Positions 2,089-30,056 of a stretch of 30,056 nucleotides of DNA are shown here, piece after piece (positions within the stretch are counted from its first letter, which is position 1; each line of letters starts with the position of its first letter). The notes beneath the pieces are model-generated. The model was given only the letters and a program-made list of their open reading frames with translations. It ran no database searches and was not told the origin of the DNA. A program made the position numbers and the translations under genes. The stretch comes from a virus: positions 1-30,056 of the IMG/VR virus record IMGVR_UViG_3300009605_000084. One strand, given 5' to 3'.

Positions 2089-2254
2089 AGAGGACATTGA
2101 GAATATTAGTGTTGGATTTATCTGTATTGAAGGTAAAACATACGATATTTCACCTGCAATTACAGCCTGTATCATTGATATGCTGAATGAAATTGATGAA
2201 CTTGAAAAATTATTGTATAATTTAAAGTATTCTGATAATGCTGCACGATCCTGA
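2045..2254 (+). CDS. 69-aa protein between the terminase subunits
   Basis: An ATG at 2045, inside the last 44 bases of the small terminase gene, opens a 69-codon frame whose end overlaps the large terminase start by 17 bases. The product has a short Gln/Glu-rich N-terminus, a probable beta segment (VGFICIEGKTYDI) and a C-terminal Leu-rich helix (MLNEIDELEKLLYNL). No family is recognised. The ribosome binding site is weak (GTGGAT about 11 nt upstream), so translation may depend on coupling. It could be a small packaging accessory protein. Position and tight overlaps make it likely to be real. Confidence 0.65.
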   Translation: MAQVEQRQRTSIQLKEDIENISVGFICIEGKTYDISPAITACIIDMLNEIDELEKLLYNLKYSDNAARS

Positions 2255-8362: not shown

Positions 8363-8382
8363 GGGGACGGTTTTCCGTCCCC
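8363..8382 (+). terminator. Stem-loop after the capsid gene (attenuator or RNA stabiliser)
   Basis: GGGGACGG (8363-8370), loop TTTT, CCGTCCCC (8375-8382): a perfect 8-bp GC-rich stem. It is followed by TGAACAACAAAG with no T-tract, and the genes continue in the same direction. It is therefore more likely a partial terminator or a 3' stabiliser of capsid mRNA than a full stop. Confidence 0.55.
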
Positions 8383-8405
8383 TGAACAACAAAGAAGGAA
8401 AAGAT

Positions 8406-8504: not shown

Positions 8505-8620
8505 TGGCTGATACAACATACGGAACTGGAGCAACCGGTTTTTCTGACGGACAGCCAAGGATTGTCAGTTCATTACAGCGCATGAAAAAGAAACGCAAGA
8601 AAAGAAAAAAGAAACAATGA
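8504..8620 (+). CDS. 38-aa miniprotein with capsid-like N-terminus and basic tail
   Basis: Thirty-eight codons coupled to both neighbours (TAATG before, ATGA after). The N-terminal half, MADTTYGTGATGFSDGQPR, resembles the first residues of the major capsid protein (MATTYGTGTALQFSDDSQRQ): both have TTYGTG, then F-S-D and Q-R/Q-P-R. The C-terminal half is RMKKKRKKRKKKQ. The codons differ between the two genes, so this is not a recent copy. The capsid N-terminal arm commonly contacts neighbouring subunits or scaffold, so a mimic with a basic tail could dock in the shell and hold DNA. That role is inference. Confidence 0.7.
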   Translation: MADTTYGTGATGFSDGQPRIVSSLQRMKKKRKKRKKKQ

Positions 8621-10041: not shown

Positions 10042-12645
10042 ATGGCTGATTTTCAGACGAGAGTCGAGGATTTGATTGGATCAGTTGGCGACACCCAGCT
10101 GATCACCGACAGTTTAACAGATGCAGCGGCTGAAATAATTACACAGCTGCCGAAAGAATGTCTGTGGGTGGTTACAGCAAATAGCGGTGATGTAACATCC
10201 AATGGCTATACCCTTGAAAATTGTGTTGTGATGAATGTTGTGAGGGAAAATGGAACTGGCGGTGAATATGAAGCCTGTAAAGAGGTTCCCATGTCTTTTG
10301 ATCGCAGAGCGCAGGATGTGAACAGTATGTGGTATCCATCCACTTCGGAACCGGTGTTCTTGATTAAAAATGCAAAAGTGTATGTATATCCAACTCCGGG
10401 ATCAGACCCAAACGCATTTCAGGTTGATTATGTTAAAAACCCAGCTGTGGCTTTTGGTGATACTGCAATAACAGCGTTTCCGGATGAATATGAATATCTT
10501 GTGGTTATTGGCGGTACGGTAAAGTGCCTGCAAAGATTGATGAACGCTAATATTGTATCTGTATCAGCGACAGTCCCATCAGCACCTTCTCTTGCCCCTG
10601 TATCATATTCAAGCCAATCTCTTACTTTAACTGATTTAACAGTAACAGCGGTTCCTCCTGATGTGCCTACTGCCCCGGCATTTAGTTCACCGGGAGTCGC
10701 ATCTTCTTCTATTTCTTTTAGTACAACTGCACCAGTATATACTGCACCAACATCAGCAATATCTCTTGTGGCTTTTAGTTCTTACACAAGTGGTCTATCT
10801 GAATCTGATCCGGGCGTACTATCAATATCATCTGTAAGTCCAGCCGTTCCGGCTGAACCAGTAATAAGTTCACCCGGTGTTGGTTCATCAACAATATCAT
10901 TCACTACCCCTGCGCCTTTATACGTCAGTCCAGCTGACCCCGGAGTGTTTTCAATTTCTGCGGTAGCGCCAGCACCACCGGCAAGCCCAACAATATCGTA
11001 TGGTACCGCTTCAGTAGGTGATGCAGTATCTTCCGCTCAAGATTCGATAATTTCGGCACAAGATGCTGTATCAGGTGCGGTAGATTCTATAACAGGCGCT
11101 GTTGATGGATATACTGGTGAAACAGACACAGCAATGAGTGGTTTTGCTTCAGGGTCAACTGATTCTGCTTATACAAAACCAATAATTACTGATAACGCAG
11201 GTGCAGCTGGAAGCCTTACCGCCTTACTTTCAGCAGGCGTTCCCGGCGATGAAACTGATCAGCTTCAGTTTGATACATGGTGGGAAATACTTTCAGATTA
11301 TATTGAAGATGATGAAGATGTTGAACTCGCACAAGCCCAAATGCAGAAGATCAGGACATATATTGATGCGTTTCAGGCAGAGGTGCAAAGTGCGTCAGCT
11401 CTTATGCAGTCAACGATTGAAGATGCAAGACAATCAACGCAGGCTTCTATAGCAACACACCAAGCAGATACAAGTATAAAGAGCGCTGGTATGAGTAGTT
11501 TAACAAGCGCTCAAGTAGCAAAGATGCAACAATCTACTTCTGCTTCAATAGCCAAGATGCGGGAATCAACAGGCGCTTCGGTATCTAAAATGCAACAATC
11601 TACTGCTGCCGCCACATCAAAAATGCAACTGTCCACACAAGCATCTATTGAGAAAATGCGTCAATCAACCAGTGTTAATATTCAGAACGCCGCCAAGACA
11701 CTTGAAGCGCTTGTGCAAGACTACACACAGGAAATTAGTAAATATCGTGCTGATGTTGACAGATTCCAAGCTGAAGTACAAAAAGGAGTACAGGAATATC
11801 AACAAAAACTGGCACATTATCAGTTACTTCAGCAAGATTCATTGCAGGAGTTTAACAAGCAAAATGCTATTTATCAGGCTGAACTGCAAAAGGCGATCCA
11901 ACAGGCTCAAATAAACGCGAATGAGCTTATCAAGGAAGGTGACTTAACACAGCAAGCTGCTATACAGGATTATGTACAAACATTAAACCGGTTTTCAGAA
12001 GATGTTAGCAGACATCAGGCTGATGTAAACAAAGAAGTTCAGGCCTATCAGCAAAATGTAGCTAAATATCAAGCTGAATTAAATGTTGCTTCTCAAAATT
12101 GGGCGGGTGAACAGGTGCAGGAGATACAACAGTATCAAGCGCACCAGCAAGACTCATTACAGGAATTTAATGAGGATAATGCCTTATATCAGGCCGAGCT
12201 ACAAAAAGCTATTCAGCAAGCGCAGATAAATGCTAATGAATATATTAAAGAAGGTGATTTGACCTTACAGGCGGCGATACAGGATTATGTTTATACGCTG
12301 AACCGCTATTCGGAAGAAGTGAAAGAGTATCAGGCGGAAGTCAACAAAGAGGTTCAAGAGAAACAGACCAATGATAATGCAAATTTGAGTAAATATCAAA
12401 ATGATATTCAAAATGAAGTACAGCAATCGCAGGCTGCGTTGAATGATAATAATAATCAACTGGCTAAATATACTGCGGAATTACAGTCTTATCAGGCTGA
12501 AGTAGCCAAGGAGATACAGGAAAACACCTTAAAGTTCCAGCAGTATCAGCGTCAGTATGATCAATTAAGGGCTGAATACGAACGAGGATTAAAGGTTCTG
12601 CCGATGCGCTTTGTTCAATATCAGGAACGGGTGGCTCAAAGCTAA
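10042..12645 (+). CDS. 867-aa fibrous virion protein: adaptor-like head, Pro/Ser repeats, coiled coil
   Basis: Residues 1-170 look like a folded adaptor-type domain (SLTDAAAEIITQLPKE at the start, FPDEYEYLVVIGGTVKCLQ at the end). Residues about 172-330 are Pro/Ser/Ala-rich with a repeated block around SSPGV-x-SS-x-ISF-x-T. Residues 487-552 are six 11-residue repeats with the core S-x-x-KM-x-x-ST. The rest is a very Gln-rich coiled coil with a 105-residue tandem duplication (blocks at residues 597 and 702). The gene follows directly on the previous stop (TAAATG). An elongated tail or head fibre anchored to the portal or connector is the likely role. The N-terminal assignment is tentative. Confidence 0.65.
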   Translation: MADFQTRVEDLIGSVGDTQLITDSLTDAAAEIITQLPKECLWVVTANSGDVTSNGYTLENCVVMNVVRENGTGGEYEACKEVPMSFDRRAQDVNSMWYPSTSEPVFLIKNAKVYVYPTPGSDPNAFQVDYVKNPAVAFGDTAITAFPDEYEYLVVIGGTVKCLQRLMNANIVSVSATVPSAPSLAPVSYSSQSLTLTDLTVTAVPPDVPTAPAFSSPGVASSSISFSTTAPVYTAPTSAISLVAFSSYTSGLSESDPGVLSISSVSPAVPAEPVISSPGVGSSTISFTTPAPLYVSPADPGVFSISAVAPAPPASPTISYGTASVGDAVSSAQDSIISAQDAVSGAVDSITGAVDGYTGETDTAMSGFASGSTDSAYTKPIITDNAGAAGSLTALLSAGVPGDETDQLQFDTWWEILSDYIEDDEDVELAQAQMQKIRTYIDAFQAEVQSASALMQSTIEDARQSTQASIATHQADTSIKSAGMSSLTSAQVAKMQQSTSASIAKMRESTGASVSKMQQSTAAATSKMQLSTQASIEKMRQSTSVNIQNAAKTLEALVQDYTQEISKYRADVDRFQAEVQKGVQEYQQKLAHYQLLQQDSLQEFNKQNAIYQAELQKAIQQAQINANELIKEGDLTQQAAIQDYVQTLNRFSEDVSRHQADVNKEVQAYQQNVAKYQAELNVASQNWAGEQVQEIQQYQAHQQDSLQEFNEDNALYQAELQKAIQQAQINANEYIKEGDLTLQAAIQDYVYTLNRYSEEVKEYQAEVNKEVQEKQTNDNANLSKYQNDIQNEVQQSQAALNDNNNQLAKYTAELQSYQAEVAKEIQENTLKFQQYQRQYDQLRAEYERGLKVLPMRFVQYQERVAQS
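11500..11697 (+). repeat. Six tandem 33-bp (11-residue) repeats
   Basis: Units begin at 11500, 11533, 11566, 11599, 11632 and 11665. Typical units are STSASIAKMRE, STGASVSKMQQ and STQASIEKMRQ; the last, STSVNIQNAAK, has decayed. An 11-residue period is the hendecad, which gives a straight or slightly right-handed coiled coil. Confidence 0.85.
11830..12006 (+). repeat. 105-residue tandem duplication, unit 1 core
   Basis: A 59-residue core starting QQDSLQEFN and running through KAIQQAQINANE and IKEGDLT. It recurs 315 bp later with 51 of 59 residues identical by my alignment, although many codons differ. Confidence 0.85.
12145..12321 (+). repeat. 105-residue tandem duplication, unit 2 core
   Basis: Second copy of the QQDSLQEFN core. 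Changes are mostly conservative (F to Y, D to E, I to L), suggesting selection on the protein after an old duplication. Confidence 0.85.
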
Positions 12646-16500: not shown

Positions 16501-16734
16501 ATAAAATCAGCTACCGAAATAAAGGTACAAAGAGGAGCGCTTGATACAACAATAGAAGCGGCAAGTGACAATAAAGACGTAAGCAGATTGTGTTCAGATC
16601 AGGCCCGGTTCGAGATTACAGCACCGGTGAAATGCAGTAGTGTACAGCTTGATATAATACCCGGTGTTACCACTTACATGGAAATTGAAGAAATAATATT
16701 TGAATACAGACCATTATTTAAGGAATCAACATAA
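13582..16734 (+). CDS. 1050-aa tail hub / DNA-stabilisation-type protein
   Basis: The N-terminus VIRDFSGGLNTFGNPREI (residues 8-25) followed by DNELVVLDNF and SLKTCG is the signature start of the P22 gp10-like/T7 gp12-like tail-hub proteins that close the head-tail channel. Further along, TDYGIAWVNRHGCYLYNG (about residues 714-731) is the recurring strand of the propeller-like part. Insertions include an FCCH-like beta module at about residues 125-193, an Ig- or jelly-roll-like stretch at about 275-420, and a late beta module near 910-1000 (TDTFTLDNTYELNVGDYII). Length exceeds the usual 500-800 residues because of these inserts. It starts two bases after the previous stop. Confidence 0.75.
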   Translation: MPKQTKVIRDFSGGLNTFGNPREIQDNELVVLDNFSVGSQGSLKTCGIGIAVTADELDPYPTALAANQRPGHNLFSFSTDRHYNGNQFHTTYIEGEHWVASADHQGSNQVNMFGRYNGGYEIISNITAASDGVVTCSSHALTSSSYVRFTDIVGDMGTALLNNTIHKIKSSADATHFTIEEDTSGKTYSSAGAAKGGQPGWIHANDEPDPADDVAAMIDYAYVDGALRTSSSNFFYSGHTNKWWGYIDRSLFINTSATDSVAAEWYSEEAEIGGPTVATFKDGETIGATPANTDAYDPALDAASAGTDTHYRDETDMDNDLADNPTLTSIEATILVTALGADETYTGLTLKVGISDDNGSTYYGSLNHTWTITGRGSSTRNVSWSGSWAVSNEDHGILSTLTYPASGVDSGVSIEVTEIKLMTSTGTWTDHSLTGNEVHVGVVDASLAGSTGWDTDWEIGVSLLYDENNKQESLISLCTNETIGGSGEVTFASGYAPDIAVFINYDNDHATAANNWRKRVTGCRVYMREIQSAASSDKSEWFPQVDCDFVKGEVTAIESGHTQTAHYDTSGTQHVFYLSKAYLIRPHKRSTYEIESGVPEDEEVTMVRYKTSAVANRRLYVGNILVSYPDGREVRMGDTMIKSVVNKFDLLPISQKIDVVVQDGDDIIRIIEYADRILQFKKRTLYIVNISQDSEYLEGAYEGKGVPVKSAVTKTDYGIAWVNRHGCYLYNGRTIIDLLVNKNGDRMIGSREWRGFINEVVDTPCSLGYSQSGKVLVVDGNSDEGTYNNAYVYDFKTGAWRFQTLMLPDTYASGSSHGRSNMVQRWDGEMMYCSYGTFYIFKDEGTRQASGHITTKDFQLAPPGKKVKLYNVYITYKTTDQVSSAVTRVRYATDGNKQFAQFNTIYKDASTVTVLASTFKYLKNVGTVVETNEGSGISADATTDTFTLDNTYELNVGDYIIIEDEAEIMKVLEIKSATEIKVQRGALDTTIEAASDNKDVSRLCSDQARFEITAPVKCSSVQLDIIPGVTTYMEIEEIIFEYRPLFKEST
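15031..15051 (+). repeat. 21-bp exact repeat, copy 2
   Basis: Identical to 9649-9669, in frame in the tail-hub gene (residues 484-490, GGSGEVT). The flanking sequences differ. Confidence 0.8.
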
Positions 16735-17219
16735 TGCCCGGACAGGAATACAACGGATTTGATCCAGCGAACCCTGAAGATCAGGGTGATCTGTACAGGG
16801 ATTTTAGCAGTCTTAAAAACGCAACGCAGAAGAAGATCAGTGTTAATCACGGCTATCCGAATGTAGCAGAAATGGCTGAAGGAGAAATATCATTGCGTTA
16901 TGTCCCCGGACAGGGAATGTTTATGTTTGTAAGATTTAGGAATAAGTTATATAATACAAGGATGGCAGAAGAGGGTCGTACTGGTATTGCAAAATTGACT
17001 GATAGTACAAGTGGTACAGTTAGCGAAACATTAACTATCACAAAACTGACAGACAGTACAGGCGGGTCAGCATCGGACACATTAGCGGATGCTGGTGTTG
17101 GATTGACTGTTGCTAAAGTCGAAAATTGGGTCGCTTCTTTAGCGGCGAAGATAAATGGTATTATAAATGAAGTTTCATCTTTATCATCTAAAACTAATGA
17201 AGTAATAGGAAAATTATAA
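16734..17219 (+). CDS. 161-aa phage structural protein
   Basis: TAATG-coupled at both ends. The N-terminal ~80 residues include GEISLRYVPGQGMFMFVRFR and NKLYNTRM, a small beta module often seen in phage virion proteins that describe fibre or hub attachment. Then comes an imperfect internal repeat of KLTDST-x-G-x-x-S-x-TL (about residues 82 and 99), and a final helix VAKVENWVASLAAKINGII of the coiled-coil trimer type. AGGAAA precedes the next gene. Likely a small hub or fibre adaptor; the family name is not known to me. Confidence 0.6.
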   Translation: MPGQEYNGFDPANPEDQGDLYRDFSSLKNATQKKISVNHGYPNVAEMAEGEISLRYVPGQGMFMFVRFRNKLYNTRMAEEGRTGIAKLTDSTSGTVSETLTITKLTDSTGGSASDTLADAGVGLTVAKVENWVASLAAKINGIINEVSSLSSKTNEVIGKL

Positions 17220-18499
17220 TGGCAAACGGACAGACACAAGCACCACAATACCCAGCACCAATTGCACCAAGTTTTCAATCCTTCGCTCAACGCCAGCGGA
17301 TGGCGATTGATGATGCGATAGCTGCGCAGGAAGCACAGGAAGAACGAGTTGGTGGCGTGGCAAAGGCTGGTGCGAAAGCAGGATTTGAATATGATAAGAT
17401 GTTGCGCGGATATATGGAAGCGAAGTATGCGAATCCCAACCTTACTTTTTGGGAATATGCCACCAAGCCTTCTGTTGGAGGCGCATTTCAAGCTGAAGGG
17501 CGTAGAAAGATTGCAGCGCATATTAGTGCAGGCGGGGATATAAAGGATATTCCCGGGATGTCTTTTGGCGAAAGACAGAAAGCTGGAATAAGAGGTATTC
17601 TTGGTGCAGACAAGCCTGAACCATCTGTCCAATCAGTTGCTGATAAAACAATAGAACCTGTAAGCGATAAACCACCTTTGGGCAAAAGAATTTTTGGTAA
17701 ACATTACGACCGAGAGGCGCAGAATATTGCACCTAAAGTAAGGAAATCCTTTTTAGAAGGAGAGTTTTACGATAAAGAGGCGCAAGACCTCGCTGGAAAA
17801 GTAAGAAAATCAATGGGGAAGGATAAAAAACCTGCTGTAGAAGCGGTAGTGCCGGATGTAGTTCCTCCGGTTGTGAAGGATGTAGTGCCGGATGTAACGG
17901 ATGTAGTGCCGGATGTGCAACCTGATGATCTTGGAGCTTTAGACCCTGCTAAATTATTGAGCAAATCACCTGAAGCAACAAAAACAACAGAACAATCATT
18001 GGGTACAATTGCAAAACTTATGGATAAGCCTGATGCCGCCGCTGCTCTTATAAAAACAGAACCATCTGTAATTGAAAGAACTGCGAAAGGGGTAGATATA
18101 ACAGGAGGTCAATATTCTAAAGTACCAGAGATTACAAAGCCTGCGGTTGATGTTGATCCGGTAGCTGTGTGGGGTGAACCAGCTAAAGGTGGATTAAAAG
18201 AAACATTAGGTAAGGCCGGAAAAGTTGGTAAAGGTTTGGGCTATGGTGTATCTGCTGTTTCTGGAGTGCAAAGATTGGCAAAAGGAGAAACTGGTGAAGA
18301 AAGATTAGGCGGTGCAGTACAGGCAGCTGGTGGTGTTGCTGGATTGGTTGCAATGACTAATTTCTGGAACCCGGTTGGCTGGGCTGCGGCGATACCGGCA
18401 GCTTTAAGTATTGGTGGTGGTCTTATGGGTGGTGGTGGTAATGATGCTCTTTCTAAAACACCGCTTGGAAGATACAGAAGAAGGGTTGGAATAGGATAA
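17219..18499 (+). CDS. 426-aa probable internal/ejected virion protein
   Basis: The N-terminal 60 residues are Gln/Ala-rich and helical. Residues 162-177 and 183-198 are a 21-residue tandem duplication (HYDREAQNIAPKVRKS against FYDKEAQDLAGKVRKS). Residues about 209-237 carry repeated VVPDV units. The C-terminus (about residues 363-407) is Gly/Ala-rich and hydrophobic (VAMTNFWNPVGWAAAIPAAL, then LSIGGGLMGGGG) before a basic end. A hydrophobic glycine-rich tail on an otherwise soluble virion protein fits a protein that inserts in the cell envelope during DNA ejection. No homolog is recognised. Confidence 0.6.
   Translation: MANGQTQAPQYPAPIAPSFQSFAQRQRMAIDDAIAAQEAQEERVGGVAKAGAKAGFEYDKMLRGYMEAKYANPNLTFWEYATKPSVGGAFQAEGRRKIAAHISAGGDIKDIPGMSFGERQKAGIRGILGADKPEPSVQSVADKTIEPVSDKPPLGKRIFGKHYDREAQNIAPKVRKSFLEGEFYDKEAQDLAGKVRKSMGKDKKPAVEAVVPDVVPPVVKDVVPDVTDVVPDVQPDDLGALDPAKLLSKSPEATKTTEQSLGTIAKLMDKPDAAAALIKTEPSVIERTAKGVDITGGQYSKVPEITKPAVDVDPVAVWGEPAKGGLKETLGKAGKVGKGLGYGVSAVSGVQRLAKGETGEERLGGAVQAAGGVAGLVAMTNFWNPVGWAAAIPAALSIGGGLMGGGGNDALSKTPLGRYRRRVGIG
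17846..17916 (+). repeat. Three near-identical 15-bp repeats encoding VVPDV
   Basis: GTAGTGCCGGATGTA at 17846-17860 and 17882-17896, and the same minus its last base at 17903-17916. Near-identity at DNA level, unlike the older protein repeats of this genome, points to recent slippage or duplication. Confidence 0.8.
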
Positions 18500-18870
18500 T
18501 GCCATTTACCACAAAAAGAACTGAACATGAACTTCCTAAAAAGGTATTTGACAACTTTCCTCGTTATCTGGAAAAATCAAAAGATAGTAAAGATGAGTAT
18601 TTGCAATCAAAGGAAGCTAATTATTTATATTCGCCAGCATACAATAATTGCTGGGCTGATTTTGATGTGTACGATGATATTTTGTGGATAAGATCGGCGT
18701 TCAGTAAAAATTACACCGAAACAAAAGAGGCGTGGGAGGAATTGAAAGAAATTGCAAGAAATATGAAATGTAAAAAGATACAATTTTCAACAAGAAGAAA
18801 TGGAAAAATGTGGGAAAGGCTGTTTGATGATATGAAAGTTGTACAATGGAAAATTGAGGTAGAGTTATGA
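18499..18870 (+). CDS. 123-aa protein with GNAT-like features
   Basis: A small protein coupled by TAATG before and ATGA after. The pattern ADFDVYDDILWIRSAF (about residues 53-68), a helix with WEELKEIARNMKCKKIQFST (79-98), then RRNGKMWERLF, resembles small GNAT-like acetyltransferase proteins found in phage structural operons. The usual acetyl-CoA pyrophosphate loop (R/Q-x-x-G-x-G/A) is not visible, so enzymatic activity is doubtful. It may be a catalytically dead GNAT-fold assembly factor. The fold is inferred from pattern only. Confidence 0.5.
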   Translation: MPFTTKRTEHELPKKVFDNFPRYLEKSKDSKDEYLQSKEANYLYSPAYNNCWADFDVYDDILWIRSAFSKNYTETKEAWEELKEIARNMKCKKIQFSTRRNGKMWERLFDDMKVVQWKIEVEL

Positions 18871-19496
18871 GTAAGGCAAAATGGCATCCGGCAACTGGTG
18901 AATTTGGAATTTTCGGAGATTTAGAGGAGGGCAGTGTTGAATCGCGAGCTGCAGAGGCACAAGCAGGGAGAGGACTTCAAGCATTAGAAGAATATAGAGG
19001 AGGTGTTGAGGAAAGAAGGGGAGCTATATCCGATTATTATAGTGGACAGAAAGAAATACAGGAACAGGAATATGGATTAAAGCGTGAAGGCGTTGGGCTA
19101 CAGCAGGAAAGGCTTGGTTTGGCAAGAGAACAGCTTGGAGGACAGCAATCACAGGCTTTATCACAATTTTTAGGGGATGCTTACAGTTTTCGCAGTCAGT
19201 CTGATGTGCAGAGGGCAACAGGCGGTTTGGCTTTTAGCGGTGGTCAGGAAAGAGGTGTGGAGCGCAAACGGGCTACAATGTCCGATATGATGCGCAGTAG
19301 AGAAGAACAATTTGGTTTACAACAACAGGGATTGGATATATCAGGTAAGGAACTTGGTTTGCAGATGGAAGGAATTGACCTTTCACAAGCAAAAGAATAT
19401 GCAGATTTAATGAAGTCACGAGGCATAGAGATGGCTGGCATAGAAGATTTACTGTATCAATTAGAAACAGAACAGATTTCATACGAGGGAGTATAA
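18867..19496 (+). CDS. 209-aa helical hairpin protein, probable internal virion protein
   Basis: A Gln/Glu/Arg-rich helical protein. Residues 70-92 show Gly exactly every seven positions (G70, G77, G84, G91), most followed by Leu. A second Gly-Leu rich arm lies at 150-170 (G150, G155, G160, G164, G169). Between them is a TGGLAFSGG turn (118-126) followed by a basic stretch RGVERKRA. Two helical arms around a Gly-rich turn suggest a hairpin or oligomeric tube, such as occurs in short-tailed phage ejection proteins. The start overlaps the previous stop (ATGA). No family named. Confidence 0.6.
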   Translation: MSKAKWHPATGEFGIFGDLEEGSVESRAAEAQAGRGLQALEEYRGGVEERRGAISDYYSGQKEIQEQEYGLKREGVGLQQERLGLAREQLGGQQSQALSQFLGDAYSFRSQSDVQRATGGLAFSGGQERGVERKRATMSDMMRSREEQFGLQQQGLDISGKELGLQMEGIDLSQAKEYADLMKSRGIEMAGIEDLLYQLETEQISYEGV

Positions 19497-20482
19497 TGGC
19501 ACGATCATACGGATCATATTTTAGACAGAGAGATTTAGATAAGCCCTACAGAGGGGCGGAGATTGTACTTGGATTTTTAGGCGATATGATGGCGGCTAAA
19601 AACAAGCAGGCTCTTGGTTATGAAGCACTGGCTCGTGAACAGGAAAAAGAAAAAGCACTGAAAGAATACCGAACACAGACGCTTGCATCAAAAACAATTT
19701 CAGTTAAACCGGGTGAACAAGTATTACAATACTCTCCAGAATCAGAAGGATATGAAACAATTGCTGGGGCGGCTGGTGAAGCGCCTAATTGGGGGAAAAC
19801 TTATGGAGATGAATTTTTTAATAGATATTTGAAAGGCCAAGTTGCATACGAGGATGCGGATAATGATGGTGTGCCTGATAAAACTTATGTTGGGCCAAAG
19901 GCTGAACAATGGCGTGAATATCAAGCGGCAATGAATAAAGGTGAAGAAGGATATGAAGATATGCATCCTGATTTAGTTGAAAAACGACATAGACAATACA
20001 AGGGTGATGATCCGGCTAAACATAAGGAAGCACTTGATTTTTTAAATGATCAATATGCTTATGAGAGAAAATATCAACAGTATAAATCTTTTGAAAAAGT
20101 TACTGGTGACGATGATGCGCGTCAGCTTTTGGCAACTTATGAAAAGGGATACCAGCCTAAAAAACTTTCTGTTCAGGATAGAACCAGTATTGAATTGCAG
20201 ATTAATAGAAGGGAAGATTTAATAGCAATGCTTGATAAGCGTAAAGAGCGCAGAACCTTTAAACTGCCAGAGGTAAGTTATCTTTCTCCTGCAGGTTCTT
20301 TTGGTGACGAAGGTTTGGAGATTTCAAGTAGAACTGAAGAAATAGTTCCTTTAACTGCCGCAGAAATAGCCAAATATGATGCAGAAGTAGATAGAATAGA
20401 GAAATGGCTGACTGATAAGGGCATAGAATATTCCCAGTTTGATTATGTTGATCCTGAATTAAAAGCCCCTTGGGTTAAATAA
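19496..20482 (+). CDS. 328-aa protein with a calcium-loop-like motif
   Basis: Starts TAATG-coupled with GAGGGAG nearby. The N-terminal 60 residues (YRGAEIVLGFLGDMMAAKNK, then a charged helix) resemble other virion proteins of this block. Residues 120-128 read DADNDGVPD, the spacing of an EF-hand- or thrombospondin-type calcium loop. The rest is charged and helical with many Tyr and Lys. It is followed immediately by the giant gene, so it is likely packaged or ejected with it. No family recognised. Confidence 0.6.
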   Translation: MARSYGSYFRQRDLDKPYRGAEIVLGFLGDMMAAKNKQALGYEALAREQEKEKALKEYRTQTLASKTISVKPGEQVLQYSPESEGYETIAGAAGEAPNWGKTYGDEFFNRYLKGQVAYEDADNDGVPDKTYVGPKAEQWREYQAAMNKGEEGYEDMHPDLVEKRHRQYKGDDPAKHKEALDFLNDQYAYERKYQQYKSFEKVTGDDDARQLLATYEKGYQPKKLSVQDRTSIELQINRREDLIAMLDKRKERRTFKLPEVSYLSPAGSFGDEGLEISSRTEEIVPLTAAEIAKYDAEVDRIEKWLTDKGIEYSQFDYVDPELKAPWVK

Positions 20483-23400
20483 TGCCTTCCGATCTCAAGT
20501 GGCTTTATGATACAGCCGCTGATGCTAATCTTAATGTTGGTGGTTATAATGATTTTTTGGAAGCAATGGATGACGACAGCAGTCGTCAATGGCTGTATGA
20601 TACATTAACAAAACAAGGTGCAAATCTTGGCGATTATGCTGAATATAATGAAAAGTTTCCTGTAGTTAATGGCGACTATGAGGGAGCTGGCCCTCCTGAA
20701 CCTGAAGCATTTGATTCTTCAAGCGCTGAATATGATTATCAGACAGCTGTCGTACACGGATTGGATAAAGACGCTGCTACCGGTGAATGGCCCAGCCGTG
20801 AACCGACAACAGGCAGAATATTAAAAGGCTCTGATCATCCTACTTTTAATGAAACGATTGATGCTGAAAAAGCATTAGGAAATATAGTTTATACAAATCC
20901 GGATGATGGATTAATTTATTCCCATCCAAAAGATAGCGTAGAAGTCAGCGCTGAAAATGTCCTATCAAGCGAAATACAAGTACCTGACTCCTCCAAACTA
21001 AAAATAGAACAGGCCGGTGTCGGTGATATTAACACCGGAAAAAAAGATATTCACTCCACCGATTACGGGATACCGCAAATCAATGACACCACATGGAATG
21101 ATATATTTAAAAATGAGTATGGAAAAGATTTGCCTGATTCATTACCGGAAGAACAGATAAAATTTGCGGTAGATAGAATATTATTAAATAAAGAAGGGGA
21201 TAGTCCTAATGGTATAAAGAATTGGGCTGCATATAATAACGGTTCCTGGGTACAGTTTAAAGACTATACGAATGAACGGTATGTCGCTGAACTTGGTGCT
21301 GATCCAAAACATCTTGAATTGATTGACACCCTTGCCGGGCCGGAGGCAACAACAATAAAAGCGGTGTTTGCCGCTGAATCAAAATTTGATTCTTCCGCTG
21401 TTAAAGTCAATTATATGCCGAGTAAGGAAGGCGGTATAAACGCTGAAGGTGGTGATGTAGTTGATGAAACCGGTCTTTATGGATTAAAGAAGGTTGATGT
21501 TCAGGGACAGCCGCAATATATATTTACAGAAGCACCGGAGAAGTCGATAACAGACAATATTATTAAACGTGTAGGCGATATGTGGAAGTATCGTGATTTA
21601 TCAGGCCCATCTGAAGAAGTAAAGGGCGCTCGCGCGGTAGAAGATTTAATTAGGCATCAATCTCTTTCTGACAGGGCTGCGAAAATAGCAATATATGATA
21701 ATCCTCGATCACCTGAATTTGAAAAAGAAGTACGCGCTCAAGTCGCGTGGAATACTATGAGTACACCAATGTTATTCACAGGCCCACAGAAAACTGCGCT
21801 TGGTGAGGGGTTCCGGAAGGCCGCTGTAAAAGGAAGATTTGGAATAGGTGAAATTGGAAAGAGTGAGTATGATGCAAAGATGCGCAGGCTGGCGAATCCA
21901 AGAGAGCATTATAAAAGAAAATTAAGAGAGATCGGGTTAGATGTACCTGATGATGATTTTCAGGGGCTTGCATGGTCACAATCCCTTTCGGGGATAGCAT
22001 GGCAGATTTATACAGGTAAGGATGTTGATTTAACATTCTACGATCCCGGCGATCAGGCACAGATTGCCGCTGGGGTATTGAGTATGGGTTTAGATCCGCT
22101 TGCTATGTTAGGTTTTGGTGCTGGTGAAGTTATAGGGCAGGGGGCAGTAAGAATTGCCGGTAAATATACAAGTAATAAATTATTAAAGCTGGGTGTTAGT
22201 GAAGCAGTAGTTAATCGCGGTATAGCTATTGGAAAAGGAAATTATGTTAAAGGTATGGCTGGAATGGGTGGTGCATTGGGTGGTTATGAAGGTCTTGGCA
22301 GTCCATTGCGGCAATTACATGAAAAGGGATTTGTAGATAAAGGGCAAGTGGCTATGGACATACTTGCTCACACTTCTCTTGGTATGATTACAGGCGCTCT
22401 TGGTCAAGGCGGATTATCTTTTGGTAAATTAGTAAGACCTGTAGGCAGGGGCGCGAAACTTATACCAGAAGGCACAAAGTTTGTTGGTGAAGTACTTGGT
22501 TTTGGCGGTGTTTCACCACTGCTGATTGAGGGTAGAAAGCCAGAATGGCCGAATGATTTTATACACGCTGCCGAGTTCTTGATGGGAATGAAACTGGTAG
22601 GTGGGGTTAATGGTGTTTATGGTAAGCCTGCTGTAAGATATGCTAAAGAAGGCATGGCCCGACTGATACATGGTGAATATTTAAGAAACGGTAAAGACTT
22701 CTCTAAAGCACAGGTAACAATAGGCGAGAAAGCGAAATCAGCTATTGAACTTGCGTTAGAAGGCAACATTGCTTGGGAAGGAAATGCACAGCCCGGAGTA
22801 TCAACAGGAGGAAAGGGAGTTGTTTATGGTGAAAAGCCCAATTTATCTGTGGATTCAAGGGGGGTTGCGATCATATACGATCAGTTTGGCAATCGTATAC
22901 CGTACAGACCAGCATTAACTCAAAAAGAATTAGTATTAAATGGTGAAATAGTAAGACCGCTTGTTGGTGACGATGGAAAGCCGGTTGTTGGTGAAGATGG
23001 AAAGCCAAGATTTCAGACAATACAATCTGAATACCATGAAGGTTCTACAGAATCGCGGATGAAGGGTTATAATGAAAAAGGTGAGGAAGTTGATTTAATT
23101 GTTCATTCAAATAAAGATGGAACTGTAACTGATATAGAGATGTCAGCTTTTAATGATAGTAAACCTATATCTGAACAAATGCACCTTTTAGATAGAATGA
23201 GATATGTAGACCGAGCGGAAGTGGCAGATGCAAAACTTAATATAAACACAGATACGAATAGGATCGTTGATATGTTAGGCGGTGGGTTTAAGCCACGGTA
23301 TGGAGCCGAAGGAGAAGGCGGCTTTGTCACAACAGCAATGGGTCGTGGTCAGGTTCCTGAAAAGACAGGCCAGCGGATCGTAGAGGGAGAAAAGGTAATT

Positions 23401-26400
23401 GATGTAGTTGAAGAAATGGTTCCTGTTTATGATAAAAAGGGGAAGCCTAAACTTGATAAAAAAGGAAAACCATTATTAAAAAAAGAACAACGACCAATTA
23501 TGGAGCAACTCCCTGTAATCGAGGCTGTAGCAGAGAAATTGGAACTGCCGCCGCACCTCCGTGGGGATGCTTTACGAGCTTTGCCTAATGATGTATTGGA
23601 TGTAATGTTAAAGAACAAAGAAACTACACCAAAAGAAAAACAGGTTATCCGTGTTGAGCAGGAACGCAGGCGAGGAGTTGAAGCTGGTGAAAAGTTAAAG
23701 GTTGTAGATGTATCAGATATGGTTGCAGAGCGTGGTGAACTGCAAGCAGAACAAAATAAACTTTTTATTGAGCTATATGGAGAAAGAGAAATTCCAGTTA
23801 GGGGGCGGGATGGTAAACAGGTAATTGATGAACGCACAGGTAAACCAAAGGTTAAAGTTATTGGGGAAGGCGAGGTTGGACTGAAAGAAGGCTCACCTGA
23901 ATATGATGCAAAAGAAAAGCAGATTGTTGAGATTGGTGATCGTATGCAATCACTTGATTTGCAAATTGGTAAAAGAACTCTTGAGTTAAGTGGAATAGAA
24001 AAACGCGAACTTCCTAAAGAAGAACCACCTAAAGAAGAACCACCGCCTGAAGCCGCGCCGGATGTAGCGCCTGAAGTACCGCCAGAACCTCCTAAAGCAC
24101 CGAAAAAAGAAAAACCGATTACAGAAAAAGAATTGGATGCTATTGACGAAAAAACACAGATATTGTATAATAAAGAATCTGAACTGGTAAAAGAAATATT
24201 TGGTAAGGATTCCGTTGTGGAAGAGGTTGTTGTTGGTAAAGATATTGGTGAAGATATTATTATTGGTGCTGGTGAGTGGACTCCTCAAAGGTTTAAGGTT
24301 GATCCAGATATTGCAGGCGAATTAACTAAATCACAAAGGAAAAAAGCGCAAAAAATAGTTGATGATCTGAACGCAATCGAAGAAGAAGTGATAAGACGGT
24401 CTGGTGCTGAAGTTGAAGCACCAGCTGAAGTCTCCCCGCCAGCTGAAAAACCTGCGCCTGCCAAACCGGAAAAAGATATTGTTGGATATAGAAGCGAAGA
24501 AGTTTATGGGGAGGGTAAGCGTGATGTAGAAAAAGTGGTGAAGCATGAAGTAGAAGAATTAGGCAATAAACATATTGTAGAAGAATTAATTAAAAAGGGC
24601 GCAATAAAAGACGAATCTGAATTACCAGCATATTTAAAATCATTGAAGGATAGGGGGTACGATGAAGTTTTGTGGTTATCGCCTAAAAGGAAAGATGTTG
24701 TTAAAGAATATGATGTTAGTCCTGAATCTGTAGAAAAAATTGAAATAAAAGAAGGTATTGTTTTATCAGATTTAGGGTCAGAAGGTAAATTAATTGCTTA
24801 TAAGTCTGAAGCACCAGTAGAAAAACCTGCTCCTGAAGCACCAGCAAAAGCGCCTGAACCTAAAAAATGGATTGACATTACCGGTTCAAAAGGAAACAAG
24901 CTGGGTGAGTTTGATAAATTAGAAGAAGGCGGTAAATGGGCTGATTATGGTATAAGAAAAGACAAAAAAGGTGGAAAGTTTATATACAAAGTTGTAGAAA
25001 GGAGAGATGATCAGTATGGTGTGCGTTATCATACAAAAGATGGAGTGCCGTTTGATACTTATGAGAAGGCCTTTGCTGGGCTGGCAGATCGTATAGCAAG
25101 AGAGGGAACAGCCGAATTAGATATGAGCAGGTATACTCCTGAACTACAGCAGGCCATATTAAAGATTGAAGCTACTTTTGATCATCCAGCATTAAGAAGT
25201 GAAGTGGCGGCAGGTACGACTGCGGAACAATATGCAAAAGACGTATCTAAAAAAGATTTACAGGTTCTTTTAGATGCAACAATACATCAGCCTGGACTAA
25301 AAGGATCGAGATATTTAAGTATTGGAAGTTTGAACAAGCCGGTAATTGCAAAGGACTTGCTGACATGGCAGAAACGCGGTAACGCGGCAAGGGAAAAACT
25401 TGGTGAAGCTCCGGTAGAAAAAGCACCTCCTAAAGAATTAGAAAAATCTAAAGGCCATATTGCATTTAAAGGAGAATATGAATATGCCGTGAGTGACAAG
25501 GGTGAGCTTATGAGAGCGCCTATTAATAATCCTGTTATGCCGGATGGCTACCGTGGAGGTATGCGATTTGAAGCGCCAAAACATCTAATCGAAAGCAAAT
25601 TAAAAGAATTAGGGGTAAAAGCACCAGCACCACCAGTAGAAAAACCTCCAATACCAGAGTTGAAGCCGGGTTCTGCGGCGGCAGAGCTTGACTATAAGAT
25701 GTCATTGGCTGGTCTTGATAAAGAAATGTCAATGCTTAAATTAGCGTTTAGCGATATTGTTGATCCAATACCAGCAGATCATAGTGGAAAAAGATGGGGT
25801 AAGGTAGATGATATATATGCCGTATTAACTGCAAATAAAAAAAGGCTTGATGCAATACAAGACCTTGCTGAAAACCGTAAGGCTATGTTTAGCGGTATAA
25901 AGCACAAAATTAGACTGAAACGTGTTTCTGATGATGTCCTTGAAATAAATTTAGCTGATTTATCTGAATTGCCGGGAGCGCGTCCTGTTGGTGAAGTAAA
26001 GCCGCGTAAACTTCTTTCAGATTTAAAGAAAAGGGAGTTGAAGAAAGAAAAAGAAGCACCTCCTGAAGTCAAACCACCAAAGAGAGCGCCGGGTGAAACA
26101 AAGCCGGTGAATCCTGAAGTAGCTGATCTGCAAAAGAAAATATCGAGGTTAGAAGCCGGTGTTGAAGAAAAAGGGAGGAAACAAGCAGAAAAGGTTTATG
26201 GCGAGGACGTTCCTGATGCGATAGCTGAAAAGTTTATATCAGATGCAAAGAAGGTATCAGCTTCTAAAGCCAAGAAGGTTAAAGAAAAGATCAAGATGAT
26301 CGAAGATGCTGAAAAAGGCAAGGTCAGGGAGGATGCGCCAAAGTCTATTCAAGAGCTGGTGGTTGATAAGTCTAAAATTGATGCGAAATTAAAGGCAGAG

Positions 26401-29400
26401 TACGCAAAGGGCGAAAAAGCGGATGCAGTTAAAGTTTCTGAATTATTAGAACAGAAGAATCAATTGAGTGAAGATATAGGGAAAGCGAAGCTCGGAAAGC
26501 CTCGAACTGGCGATCAGGTTACGCTTACTCCAACTAAAAAAGGTGGGAAAAAGGTTGTAAAGAAACCTGTTGATGATCCTGTAATGCGCGGTAAGATCGA
26601 AATGGGGAACATATTTGAAAGTATAAAGGATCAAGTTGGAAATCAAGCTATGTCAGATATGGGGTCAATCTCATTAGCAGAAAGAGCAGAAAGAGCAGGA
26701 GATTTAGATATAGATTGGTCGTTAGTTACCGCACCGGAACACAGTAGGATTGTAAAAAGAAAAAATGGGCAATTTTTAGAGATTGATCTTCCGTTTGTTG
26801 AGGGTACTTATGAAGTCCAGCTTCCAGTTCGTGTTACTATGAATAAAGATGGCAGTATGACAACTGGTGTAAACGAAAATCCGTGGTTTAAGAAATTCAG
26901 TAAAAATGCAGTGGCACAAGCATTTAAAAAACCGGGTAAACCAAGAATAATTAGGGAATCTATCAAGGGCGATCTGGTAACTATTAGAGGTGAAGTATAT
27001 AAATTAGACAGTCCAGCTGGTTATACAGCAGAAAATATTGGTGAATGGTCGGTTCTTCGTAAAGGTGAATATCGTACTGTTGATGACATTTCATTACGGA
27101 AAGCTGCAGATAGAGAGCTTGAACGGATGGGTGCAGAACGTGCTGCAGGCCCGGTAGCGTTCGCACCAGAATTTACTGCTCCAGCGCGTAAAGCGCTTGC
27201 CCAACAGGATCAGAAAGGATTGAATAAGGCGCTTAAAGGCTATCAGAAGCGCTTAAAACAGTATCAAGGATTCAAACAGCCTACAAAAGAAGTGCAGCAC
27301 TCTATGGGCGAATTAAAAGAAGCAATTAAAATTGCGGAGGATTTAATAAAAGTACAAAAAGAAGCAGATCGGCTGGGTGGCACGATAGCTGGTATGGATT
27401 TCATACCCGGAACTACTGCTTTCTTTAATGCCATGCGCCAGTGGAAGCGATCTAAACTACCTCTTTCAGATCGGAAAAAGCTGGATAGTCTTGTAAGGCG
27501 TTCCAATAAACTGCATAACAAATGGGTAGCTGAAGGCCGGGTTGACAGGGAAATGGAAGGCCGCCTTGAAAAATTAAGCGATGAGATTGTGGCGCTGGAG
27601 AGTAAGGTAGCCAATCAAATTCCATCTGAAACAGAGATGGTTAAAATTGATCGGAATATTAAATGGCCTTCAAGAACGCGTGATCTCCGCCGGACACATA
27701 AGAAACAGCGCGATCTTTCGAAGCAGTTGAAGGAAACCGGTGTTGAGAATGTTGATGAGAATTACCGTGATATAAAACTGGAAGTAACAAAAAACCGTAC
27801 AGACTCACAAAAAGATTTTACTCGAGATGAAATAAATATGTACGAAACAATATTAGATGATATGGCTTCAAACGGCGGTTATCTCGATAATATACCAGCA
27901 TATTTAATTGGGAAAGATGTACCTATATACAAAGAATTGGGGCCAAAGGCCGGTTATAGGACTAAACGGTGGGGTAAGCATTTAGAAAGATGGATGTTGA
28001 TGCACAAGTCAATGAATACGGGATTAAAATATATCTTTCCGCATGATTATCAAATTTCACTTATGGGAAAACATGGAAAAGCGCTACACGATTTAAACTC
28101 CAAATTTATAGCAAGGATGCAGCTGATTCAAGGAGATGGTGAAAATACAATAAAAGAAATACAAAAATTGATCAAGAAGAAGAACATGAAAAATTTCGTA
28201 GCGGCAATTGATCCAGAACTCGGTGAATTTATGGATTTTAGGGGTAAGGGTAAGTTTTTAAGCGATCCCAACACAAAAAAAGCGGCACGGTTGTGGAGAG
28301 AATACACAGATCGTCTGCATGACATGAGAAAAAAATATGAAACTTGGGTTACTTACGACATTGCTGGGAAAAAAGTACGAGTACCGGCTGACGATGTATA
28401 TATTGACAATTGGGTACGATGGCAGTTAAGTAAAGATGCACTTAAAGATTTTGCTAAAGAAGGGCCGTTGTTTCAAAAAGAAGTGCAGAGGTTGATAGAT
28501 AAAAGCGGAAAGACGATTAAGGACGCTAAAACAGGCAAGGTCAGGGAAAAAACCCGCGCTGAAAAAGAAATAGAAGCATATCAGATTATTGGTGAATGGT
28601 ATAGATTATCTCCTCATGTTCAATCGCCTGTTCGTTATGGCTCTATGGATACGCCGAGAATGGCTAATCTTTCGCGTGAATTATATGAAAAGGATTTTAC
28701 TGAACTTGCTCCGGGGATCGCTCAACGAGGAGCAAATTTTCTTGCTGCAGCAGAAGTCTATGGACAAGACATGGGTGTTGTAAAAGAAATGGTAGGTCGT
28801 ATAGGTACAGACCCTGCGTTGGGCCGGGGTGCGGCTAAATCAGGTAGGCGAGCCGCTGAATATATGGATACTATTGTTTTGGGGCATGGAGAGAGAAACC
28901 CATTTATGATGGGAATAACAAGAGTGCTTGGAACCGGTTATCTTTCAGGCCCAAGATCATTTACCAACAATATTATGTATTCTAACAATGTTGACCCTGC
29001 CGCTTTTACATGGAGAGCTGCGGTAAGGGGAATGACAGGATTTTTTAAGAGTCCTGAAATAGCTCTGACGGAAGCAAGAAAGGCAGGCCAGCTGGGTGTT
29101 GGCGTTCGTGAAATGGAACAGATGACTTTTGTTAAAGGAGTTCAGAAATATGTTTCTCCGTGGATTTCTTGGTCTGAATTTTTTAATCGGGCAAAAGCAG
29201 TAATGGCAGCAGGCGAAACGGCTGATATTTATTCTAAATATCTTTCAGACAGTATATCACCAGAGATAAAGAGTCGCTTACCGCTTGGCTGGCGCAAAAG
29301 AATGAACGCAAAAACAGCAAGACTCTTTTTTAAGGATTTTGGAAGTTTTTCTGATGCAGAAATAGACAGGTTTATTGAGCGTGGAAGGATGACAGAGGCA

Positions 29401-30056
29401 GAAAAAGACAGGGTTATATCGTTTGCGCCTTCTGTTGCGCAGGGATCAACACACCCATACTTTATGCCGCCAATAATGTCAGGTGATTTAGCTTGGACAG
29501 GCGGATTAAAGAAGATGGCTTACCGGGCCACTGCTGGAATATATAAAGCGGCTATTAAACCTTTGGCTTTGCACGGTGATCCAGCTCCGATGATGAGATG
29601 GATAGCAGGGTCTGCCATTAGTGGTGAGTTGGCATATATGATTAATTGGGGAGGTTTTGGCTGGGAACATCCAGCAGGCGGAAATATTGATGATTTTATA
29701 GAGTGGATAAAGGCTGATGGTATCGAAACGAATGATGCTCGAAAGATTATAGACAGGATAGGGATGAACATGATGAAGGCATCTGGATTTGGTCTTATTA
29801 CTGATTCAATGCAAGGCTACGGAATGGCTCCTATTGTTTACGATGCCTATCTGGGCATTGTTAAGGAGTTGGGTTATTTAAGAACAGGTAAAAAAGAATT
29901 TTTACAGGTTACGGATGATTTACTTACTTCTCATTTAGCTATATGGAGAGATTGGTATCAAGCAAAAATGGCGTGGTTTTCTCCAAGGGCAAAAGAATAT
30001 AGATATTGGAATAATGTACGACAGTATAAATATAGATTTAATGAAGATTTAAAAGG
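20482..30056 (+). CDS. Giant polyvalent virion protein with N-terminal lysozyme-like domains (right end not in window)
   Basis: One frame, TAATG-coupled and without a Shine-Dalgarno, stays open from 20482 to the edge: at least 3191 residues (roughly 350 kDa). Region 1 (residues about 170-260) is lysozyme-like: E176, STDYGIPQIN (192-201), NWAAYNNGSW (247-256). Region 2 (about 287-360) has AAESKFDSSAV with E299 and a degenerate GLYGLKKV (331-338). Residues about 514-750 are Gly/Ala-rich and hydrophobic. From about 1174 on, Pro/Glu/Lys linkers (1174-1216, 1310-1331, 1443-1462, 1641-1657, 1714-1730, 1856-1876) separate small modules. The C-terminal third is helical and resembles phage polyvalent (LPD-type) proteins. 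No RNA polymerase motifs were seen. It likely degrades peptidoglycan and is ejected with DNA. Confidence 0.9.
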   Translation, partial: MPSDLKWLYDTAADANLNVGGYNDFLEAMDDDSSRQWLYDTLTKQGANLGDYAEYNEKFPVVNGDYEGAGPPEPEAFDSSSAEYDYQTAVVHGLDKDAATGEWPSREPTTGRILKGSDHPTFNETIDAEKALGNIVYTNPDDGLIYSHPKDSVEVSAENVLSSEIQVPDSSKLKIEQAGVGDINTGKKDIHSTDYGIPQINDTTWNDIFKNEYGKDLPDSLPEEQIKFAVDRILLNKEGDSPNGIKNWAAYNNGSWVQFKDYTNERYVAELGADPKHLELIDTLAGPEATTIKAVFAAESKFDSSAVKVNYMPSKEGGINAEGGDVVDETGLYGLKKVDVQGQPQYIFTEAPEKSITDNIIKRVGDMWKYRDLSGPSEEVKGARAVEDLIRHQSLSDRAAKIAIYDNPRSPEFEKEVRAQVAWNTMSTPMLFTGPQKTALGEGFRKAAVKGRFGIGEIGKSEYDAKMRRLANPREHYKRKLREIGLDVPDDDFQGLAWSQSLSGIAWQIYTGKDVDLTFYDPGDQAQIAAGVLSMGLDPLAMLGFGAGEVIGQGAVRIAGKYTSNKLLKLGVSEAVVNRGIAIGKGNYVKGMAGMGGALGGYEGLGSPLRQLHEKGFVDKGQVAMDILAHTSLGMITGALGQGGLSFGKLVRPVGRGAKLIPEGTKFVGEVLGFGGVSPLLIEGRKPEWPNDFIHAAEFLMGMKLVGGVNGVYGKPAVRYAKEGMARLIHGEYLRNGKDFSKAQVTIGEKAKSAIELALEGNIAWEGNAQPGVSTGGKGVVYGEKPNLSVDSRGVAIIYDQFGNRIPYRPALTQKELVLNGEIVRPLVGDDGKPVVGEDGKPRFQTIQSEYHEGSTESRMKGYNEKGEEVDLIVHSNKDGTVTDIEMSAFNDSKPISEQMHLLDRMRYVDRAEVADAKLNINTDTNRIVDMLGGGFKPRYGAEGEGGFVTTAMGRGQVPEKTGQRIVEGEKVIDVVEEMVPVYDKKGKPKLDKKGKPLLKKEQRPIMEQLPVIEAVAEKLELPPHLRGDALRALPNDVLDVMLKNKETTPKEKQVIRVEQERRRGVEAGEKLKVVDVSDMVAERGELQAEQNKLFIELYGEREIPVRGRDGKQVIDERTGKPKVKVIGEGEVGLKEGSPEYDAKEKQIVEIGDRMQSLDLQIGKRTLELSGIEKRELPKEEPPKEEPPPEAAPDVAPEVPPEPPKAPKKEKPITEKELDAIDEKTQILYNKESELVKEIFGKDSVVEEVVVGKDIGEDIIIGAGEWTPQRFKVDPDIAGELTKSQRKKAQKIVDDLNAIEEEVIRRSGAEVEAPAEVSPPAEKPAPAKPEKDIVGYRSEEVYGEGKRDVEKVVKHEVEELGNKHIVEELIKKGAIKDESELPAYLKSLKDRGYDEVLWLSPKRKDVVKEYDVSPESVEKIEIKEGIVLSDLGSEGKLIAYKSEAPVEKPAPEAPAKAPEPKKWIDITGSKGNKLGEFDKLEEGGKWADYGIRKDKKGGKFIYKVVERRDDQYGVRYHTKDGVPFDTYEKAFAGLADRIAREGTAELDMSRYTPELQQAILKIEATFDHPALRSEVAAGTTAEQYAKDVSKKDLQVLLDATIHQPGLKGSRYLSIGSLNKPVIAKDLLTWQKRGNAAREKLGEAPVEKAPPKELEKSKGHIAFKGEYEYAVSDKGELMRAPINNPVMPDGYRGGMRFEAPKHLIESKLKELGVKAPAPPVEKPPIPELKPGSAAAELDYKMSLAGLDKEMSMLKLAFSDIVDPIPADHSGKRWGKVDDIYAVLTANKKRLDAIQDLAENRKAMFSGIKHKIRLKRVSDDVLEINLADLSELPGARPVGEVKPRKLLSDLKKRELKKEKEAPPEVKPPKRAPGETKPVNPEVADLQKKISRLEAGVEEKGRKQAEKVYGEDVPDAIAEKFISDAKKVSASKAKKVKEKIKMIEDAEKGKVREDAPKSIQELVVDKSKIDAKLKAEYAKGEKADAVKVSELLEQKNQLSEDIGKAKLGKPRTGDQVTLTPTKKGGKKVVKKPVDDPVMRGKIEMGNIFESIKDQVGNQAMSDMGSISLAERAERAGDLDIDWSLVTAPEHSRIVKRKNGQFLEIDLPFVEGTYEVQLPVRVTMNKDGSMTTGVNENPWFKKFSKNAVAQAFKKPGKPRIIRESIKGDLVTIRGEVYKLDSPAGYTAENIGEWSVLRKGEYRTVDDISLRKAADRELERMGAERAAGPVAFAPEFTAPARKALAQQDQKGLNKALKGYQKRLKQYQGFKQPTKEVQHSMGELKEAIKIAEDLIKVQKEADRLGGTIAGMDFIPGTTAFFNAMRQWKRSKLPLSDRKKLDSLVRRSNKLHNKWVAEGRVDREMEGRLEKLSDEIVALESKVANQIPSETEMVKIDRNIKWPSRTRDLRRTHKKQRDLSKQLKETGVENVDENYRDIKLEVTKNRTDSQKDFTRDEINMYETILDDMASNGGYLDNIPAYLIGKDVPIYKELGPKAGYRTKRWGKHLERWMLMHKSMNTGLKYIFPHDYQISLMGKHGKALHDLNSKFIARMQLIQGDGENTIKEIQKLIKKKNMKNFVAAIDPELGEFMDFRGKGKFLSDPNTKKAARLWREYTDRLHDMRKKYETWVTYDIAGKKVRVPADDVYIDNWVRWQLSKDALKDFAKEGPLFQKEVQRLIDKSGKTIKDAKTGKVREKTRAEKEIEAYQIIGEWYRLSPHVQSPVRYGSMDTPRMANLSRELYEKDFTELAPGIAQRGANFLAAAEVYGQDMGVVKEMVGRIGTDPALGRGAAKSGRRAAEYMDTIVLGHGERNPFMMGITRVLGTGYLSGPRSFTNNIMYSNNVDPAAFTWRAAVRGMTGFFKSPEIALTEARKAGQLGVGVREMEQMTFVKGVQKYVSPWISWSEFFNRAKAVMAAGETADIYSKYLSDSISPEIKSRLPLGWRKRMNAKTARLFFKDFGSFSDAEIDRFIERGRMTEAEKDRVISFAPSVAQGSTHPYFMPPIMSGDLAWTGGLKKMAYRATAGIYKAAIKPLALHGDPAPMMRWIAGSAISGELAYMINWGGFGWEHPAGGNIDDFIEWIKADGIETNDARKIIDRIGMNMMKASGFGLITDSMQGYGMAPIVYDAYLGIVKELGYLRTGKKEFLQVTDDLLTSHLAIWRDWYQAKMAWFSPRAKEYRYWNNVRQYKYRFNEDLK

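Follow-up and report, generated by a model that had tools for sequence, protein, structure and literature searches.

A giant cysteine-free protein encoded last in the virion module of an uncultured marine podovirus is a probable ejection protein

The gp24 protein of Kuravirus SU10 has been shown experimentally to be an ejection protein (PMC9509320), and its gene occupies the same position as the very large orphan gene that is the subject of this work. That gene lies in the window, by which we mean the whole stretch of DNA analyzed: the complete 30,056-bp IMG/VR record IMGVR_UViG_3300009605_000084, a fragment of a virus that is an uncultured marine short-tailed phage. The closest precedents for its product are SU10 gp20-gp24, T7 gp16 and the giant proteins of Bcep22-type phages. 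Earlier work also concerns cysteine. Its absence from N4-like virion RNA polymerases (vRNAPs), explained by passage through the tail or by the periplasm, is already published (PMC2784036, PMC3715699, PMC3915230), and the 2270-residue StenR_269 podophage protein was called a putative vRNAP on the basis of absent cysteine, size and helical prediction, with cysteine absence also noted in Zobellviridae relatives (PMC10747016). We propose that the orphan gene product, hereafter the giant, is probably the largest of the internal head ('ejection') proteins of a virus of the P22/SU10 podovirus type, and that it would be ejected via the tail and help to build a trans-envelope conduit. It adds a very large member to a known kind of protein and is not a new kind of machine.

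The giant is encoded by a single plus-strand frame (20482..30054) of 3191 codons, which starts at a TAATG junction with a 1-base overlap of the stop of the 19496-20482 gene and is free of stop codons up to the window end, as the first-pass annotation of this DNA had described. Its statement that no gene competes with this frame also holds, as the open reading frame (ORF) listing of the window contains no opposing ORF above 136 residues. The annotation further proposed finding the stop codon in adjoining sequence. Because the window is the whole record, the contig end cuts the gene and the stop lies beyond it; the length has to come from relatives. The last residue of the window aligns near residue 3003 of a complete 3160-residue ORF in a related contig (G004, described below), so about 155 residues appear to be missing; another complete relative (G005, 2708 residues) extends similarly, and the full-length giant would be about 3350 residues.

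A search with the terminase large subunit (TerL) yielded 67 related viral contigs. Two of these, from other metagenomes, carry a complete, collinear giant at the same place: G004 (IMGVR_UViG_3300032132_000014; 3160 residues, 55% identical) and G005 (3300031972_000819; 2708 residues, 48% identical). A third, G019 (3300017744_000239), carries the N-terminal 1346 residues, and further scans of viral contigs for homologues of the giant gave only these same three. Over the whole ORF, the rates of nonsynonymous (dN) and synonymous (dS) divergence are 0.38 and 1.22 against G004, and 0.48 and 2.51 against G005, with dN < dS in every segment with enough codons. On these comparisons the frame is under purifying selection and the gene is real. 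The first-pass annotation had named a sequencing artefact or assembly join as the finding that would undo its reading, and two features could feed such a suspicion of a join or read-through: the gene runs off the contig, and no homologue was detected for one insert (residues 850-940). Yet an artefact is barely credible, because contigs from other metagenomes carry the conserved blocks in the same order from the N-terminus to the C-terminus, and dN falls well short of dS in all well-sampled segments; a cysteine codon, moreover, occurs nowhere in the frame, unmatched inserts included.

The giant gene closes a virion module of the P22/SU10 podovirus type, whose order is TerL, P22-type portal, probable scaffold, SU10-type capsid protein, SU10-adaptor-like proteins, a 1050-residue protein, five smaller genes and the giant. 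The genes needed for the argument are as follows.

2238..3857, + strand: terminase large subunit (TerL; phrog_38, PF17289)
3857..5869, + strand: P22-type portal (PF16510, E 3.6e-59)
6804..8339, + strand: SU10-type major capsid protein (PF17236, E 8.3e-34)
10042..12645, + strand: SU10-adaptor-like virion protein (PF24175, E 2.5e-9)
16734..17219, + strand: cysteine-free 161-residue gene, candidate member of the ejection set, the weakest of four
17219..18499, + strand: cysteine-free 426-residue gene with a Gly/Ala-rich hydrophobic C-terminus, candidate ejection protein
18867..19496, + strand: cysteine-free 209-residue gene, candidate ejection protein
19496..20482, + strand: cysteine-free 328-residue gene, candidate ejection protein
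20482..30054, + strand: probable giant ejection-protein ORF, 3191 codons, truncated by the contig end (ORF call, relatives, dN/dS)

A place at the end of the virion module, after the tail and adaptor genes, is among the features of ejection proteins that were looked for, and the giant has it. A giant last gene is present in every relative whose contig covers the locus, with 1641-3160 residues in the related contigs, and stands at the same place in Vibrio phage VS-ABTNL-3 (1790 residues), Mel-JY34 (1894), a Desulfofustis phage (1577) and SU10 (gp24, 1473). With BcepIL02 gp70 reaching 4667 residues, the first-pass remark that virion proteins of this size are rare was overstated.

The giant contains no cysteine in 3191 residues, for which P = 2.9e-10 if cysteine were as frequent as in six virion and packaging genes upstream of it (27 in 3935 residues). 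Read in the other two forward frames, the gene has 52 and 170 TGT or TGC triplets; in frame it has none. Together with nine giants from related contigs (G019 partial), the locus provides ten giants with no cysteine in 21,948 residues. The property extends to the neighbors, four of the five preceding genes (161, 426, 209 and 328 residues) being cysteine-free, while the portal has 3 cysteines, the capsid protein 6 and the 1050-residue protein 10. No or almost no cysteine is a feature associated with ejection proteins, not a formal definition of them, and described proteins bear it out: none occurs in T7 gp15 and gp16 (gp14 has 1), in P22 gp7, gp20 and gp16, in SU10 gp20-gp24, in N4 gp50 (3500 residues) or in BcepIL02 gp70. 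Documented ejection proteins of four phages have 1 cysteine in 10,026 residues; the other virion and packaging proteins that these phages encode have 120 in 18,294. Counted by protein, 11 of 12 documented podophage ejection proteins are cysteine-free versus 7 of 37 others (Fisher p 1e-5), and among proteins of at least 500 residues the figures are 6 of 6 versus 0 of 16; the phages were picked by hand, so these comparisons are not a census. Six divergent N4-like vRNAPs, fetched afterwards as a test, have no cysteine in 20,307 residues, and the giants of crAss001 are depleted rather than free (5 in 4808 residues read).

Selection against disulphide formation in the oxidising periplasm offers the best explanation for this complete lack of cysteine. 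The tape measures of lambda, P1 and T4 lack cysteine as well. P1 DarB, DdrB and DarA and T4 Alt reach the cytoplasm through a long tail, and these have 9, 2, 1 and 3 cysteines, respectively. We lean towards a broader statement: cysteine exclusion would hold, as a general sequence law, for phage proteins that have to line or cross the periplasm, namely whole podophage ejection sets and the tape measures of long-tailed phages, and would not hold for head proteins that enter the cytoplasm by way of a finished tail. Earlier reports of it concern N4-like vRNAPs and one other group of giant podophage proteins. Cysteine goes unmentioned in a review of ejection proteins (PMC8954989) and in recent structural papers, and the open literature searched did not contain the extension to entire ejection sets and to tape measures, though papers beyond that literature could. 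If true, cysteine exclusion would identify ejection sets, the window's included, without homology, and our result supports it as a homology-free marker for phage proteins passing the periplasm.

Could the giant instead be a virion RNA polymerase of the N4 type, as proposed for the StenR_269 protein (PMC10747016)? Its size, its place as last gene of the module, its mainly helical prediction and its lack of cysteine would all suit one. However, the non-polymerase ejection proteins of T7 (gp15 and gp16), P22 and SU10 are likewise cysteine-free, so absence of cysteine alone is no sign of a polymerase, and the published inference for a giant cysteine-free podophage protein is weakened by this shared trait. 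We rejected the N4-type vRNAP after a search with a polymerase-domain profile built from four vRNAPs: with three held-out vRNAPs as positive controls, recovered at E 1e-52 to 1e-58, it gave no hit to the window protein at E <= 10, in agreement with the first-pass observation that N4 polymerase motifs are absent. A polymerase is thus very improbable, and would have to be unrecognisably divergent.

Within the giant, the following parts can be told apart.

20701..20940, + strand: mobile segment, residues 74-153, also in unrelated phage proteins
21040..21246, + strand: putative lysozyme/SLT-fold segment, residues 187-255 (STDYGIPQIN...NWAAYNNG; sub-threshold match)
21349..21399, + strand: SLT-like catalytic-helix motif, residues 290-306, around invariant E299 (AVFAAESKFDSSAV)
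21979..22641, + strand: Gly/Ala-rich, GxxxG-rich, moderately hydrophobic stretch, residues 500-720, candidate membrane-interacting region
23029..26257, + strand: mostly variable central region, residues 850-1925, with inserts absent from relatives
27163..30054, + strand: conserved C-terminal core, residues 2228-3191, predicted mainly helical at low confidence

Searches of the whole protein gave no match in Pfam and NCBIfam and one marginal match in PHROGs, to an unknown family; tblastn against 50,697 phage records gave matches limited to a 74-residue segment, and sequence searches of the PDB gave nothing beyond weak lysozyme C matches for the N-terminus. Residues 74-153 match a small protein of phage AP013544 (45%, 8e-11) and crAss-like phage cr111_1 (40%, 9e-5). 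The hydrophobic segment of the first-pass annotation exists as the Gly/Ala- and GxxxG-rich stretch at about residues 500-720, where strong hydrophobicity is lacking (best 19-residue Kyte-Doolittle mean only 1.49). Its linkers are real: six Pro/Glu/Lys/Ala-rich stretches lie between residues 1159 and 1954 among variable inserts, and the central region holds five of these charged linkers and the beginning of the sixth, together with a block at residues 1460-1640 that is conserved. One central insert, residues 1330-1450 (24469-24831), is absent from G004 and G005 and resembles an unannotated segment of the human-gut phage contig MT835533 (29.6%, E 8e-4), as a transferable module might.

The first-pass annotation saw in this architecture an ejected multi-domain effector acting in several ways. 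Ejection of a virion giant fits the gene position, the SU10 precedent and the exclusion of cysteine; a multi-activity effector is not supported. Such a protein, of the Bcep22 gp75 or P1 DarB kind, would deliver swappable central modules to the cytoplasm against host defences and use its ends for delivery. The variable, linker-separated center, with inserts unique to each relative and one similar to a segment of another phage, would suit it, and Bcep22-type giants share the outline: JC1 gp69 combines a lytic transglycosylase, a methyltransferase/helicase, LPD3 and LPD38 and was found in virions by mass spectrometry (PMC9144972), BcepIL02 gp70 is cysteine-free too, and the syntenic giant of G018 contains LPD38. 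In contrast, 320-residue slices covering the window protein revealed no enzymatic domain; LPD38 and an HExxH motif were not found in the giant, and 9 cysteines are present in P1 DarB, which a long tail delivers to the cytoplasm. Where polyvalent proteins have two or more disparate recognised domains, mostly enzymatic or LPD, in a single polypeptide (PMC5512222), the giant has one sub-threshold domain. Because its central segments are swappable the effector keeps some probability, and we regard it as unlikely. The predicted helices of the conserved parts fit a conduit at least as well as a multi-activity effector.

The N-terminus, which the first-pass annotation described as peptidoglycan-cutting, is weakly supported in that role. 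Residues 187-255 match the second half only of the lysozyme/SLT fold. Slice searches gave E 6.4e-4 for SLT and 0.006 for C-type lysozyme, and about 0.02 for both in G005, all below curated cut-offs (for the window, SLT 19.7 bits versus 21.3 and Lys 17.3 versus 27). There are three candidates for the catalytic Glu. E175 has lysozyme-like spacing and is not conserved; E164, 28 residues before the STDYG motif, is conserved and non-canonical; and E299 sits within a strong SLT catalytic-helix-like motif (IKAVFAAESKFDSSAV) downstream of GIPQIN, an order that would require a circular permutation. A permuted SLT profile fits better than a normal one, with best domain scores of four relatives above >99% of shuffled decoys and below the best decoys.

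We therefore return to the ejection protein, for which the following sequence of events can be envisaged. The giant would be packaged in the capsid and exit by way of the portal and tail, either before the DNA or together with it, and at least partly unfolded. Along with the smaller ejection proteins whose genes directly precede its own, it would cross the outer membrane and refold into a periplasm-spanning genome conduit that contacts the inner membrane, like T7 gp15/gp16. The lysozyme-like N-terminal segment may loosen peptidoglycan, or be a relic of a domain that did. Several points weigh against this proposal. The conduit is drawn by analogy, and packaging of the giant in virions of this group is inferred. 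Sequence searches detected no homology to any named ejection protein, though none is required, because many ejection proteins lack mutual homology. None of the three candidate glutamates is clearly both canonical in place and conserved. AlphaFold models of residues 72-850 and 2228-3188, made with 3-4 homologues, have a mean pLDDT of 36-38, too low to serve for fold comparison. Finally, epsilon15 gp14-gp17 are depleted in cysteine rather than free (5 in 2574 residues), and scaffold proteins are also often cysteine-free, so the signature is not specific alone. The proposal nonetheless gives a large orphan gene of an uncultured podovirus group a likely function.

The giant is also mosaic and fast-evolving. 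The window and the fully read contigs share about 59-92% identity in portal and TerL; the giants of related contigs form groups that BLAST cannot join, or joins over segments only. The G007 giant, for example, has an N-terminal segment in common with G014 and G018 and a C-terminal half in common with G009 and G012. The giant is thus one of the fastest-changing components in a virion module that is otherwise conserved, which fits the review 'Viral Ejection Proteins: Mosaically Conserved, Conformational Gymnasts' (PMC8954989). At residues 2228-2480 (27163-27921), the proportions of synonymous (pS) and nonsynonymous (pN) differences from G004 are 0.37 and 0.12, neighboring C-terminal segments having pS 0.67-0.70, and no such drop is seen against G005; the local drop suggests recent recombination within the gene. 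The 1859-residue syntenic giant of G018 (L097:3117-8693) has a confident LPD38 domain (E 3.7e-10), which links the locus to Bcep22-type giants. A search of the window and ten other records gave no further LPD38, and the window C-terminus has no profile match to G018. Two phage contigs, L121 and L122, with TerL 92% and 83% identical, are binned in the Candidatus Marinimicrobia metagenome-assembled genome UBA7303, a lead from binning to a possible host.

Elsewhere in the module, a 123-residue gene with 2 cysteines (18499-18870) lies inside the otherwise cysteine-free set before the giant; its homologues have 2 cysteines in G005 and G019 and 1 in G008, and its product is predicted not to be ejected. 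An E1_FCCH domain match occurs in two different virion proteins (8617-9513, residues 115-199, where the same stretch also matches a phage beta-barrel domain; and 13582-16734, residues 130-194). It looks like a shuttling insert, because 217-residue homologues of the 8617-9513 protein in G014, G015 and G018 lack exactly that stretch. The 867-residue adaptor-like protein (10042-12645) ranges from 221 to 892 residues among relatives, and overlapping BLAST matches suggest internal repeats. Between the capsid and adaptor-like genes is a 277-bp gap (8340-8616; 842 bp in G004) with no ORF of at least 80 residues and no Rfam match, and the window as a whole contains no tRNA genes or Rfam families.

Among known systems, N4 gp50 and its relatives resemble the giant in being about 3500 residues long, ejected, cysteine-free and encoded last in the virion module, and differ by a polymerase domain that the giant lacks. 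The StenR_269/Zobellviridae giants (PMC10747016) are alike by description, as giant, mainly helical, cysteine-free products of a late gene with no known domain, although the StenR_269 protein was proposed as a vRNAP. Bcep22-type giants (BcepIL02 gp70, 4667 residues; JC1 gp69, 4515 residues) share size, last place among virion genes, freedom from cysteine (BcepIL02) and a variable center, but have a clear SLT domain and recognisable methyltransferase/helicase and LPD38 domains, none of which is above threshold in the giant. T7 gp16, with 1318 residues and a clear SLT domain (E 1.3e-30) where the giant, at about 3350 residues, is sub-threshold, is (with gp15) similarly a last, largest internal virion protein without cysteine, with an N-terminal lysozyme-superfamily segment. 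In SU10 (PMC9509320), gp24 has 1473 residues and no detectable sequence similarity to the giant, and the transglycosylase is a separate gene (gp20), whose lysozyme/SLT match has its sub-threshold counterpart in the giant's N-terminus; the two loci are alike in their P22-type portal, SU10-type capsid and adaptor, giant last gene of the virion module and cysteine-free set.

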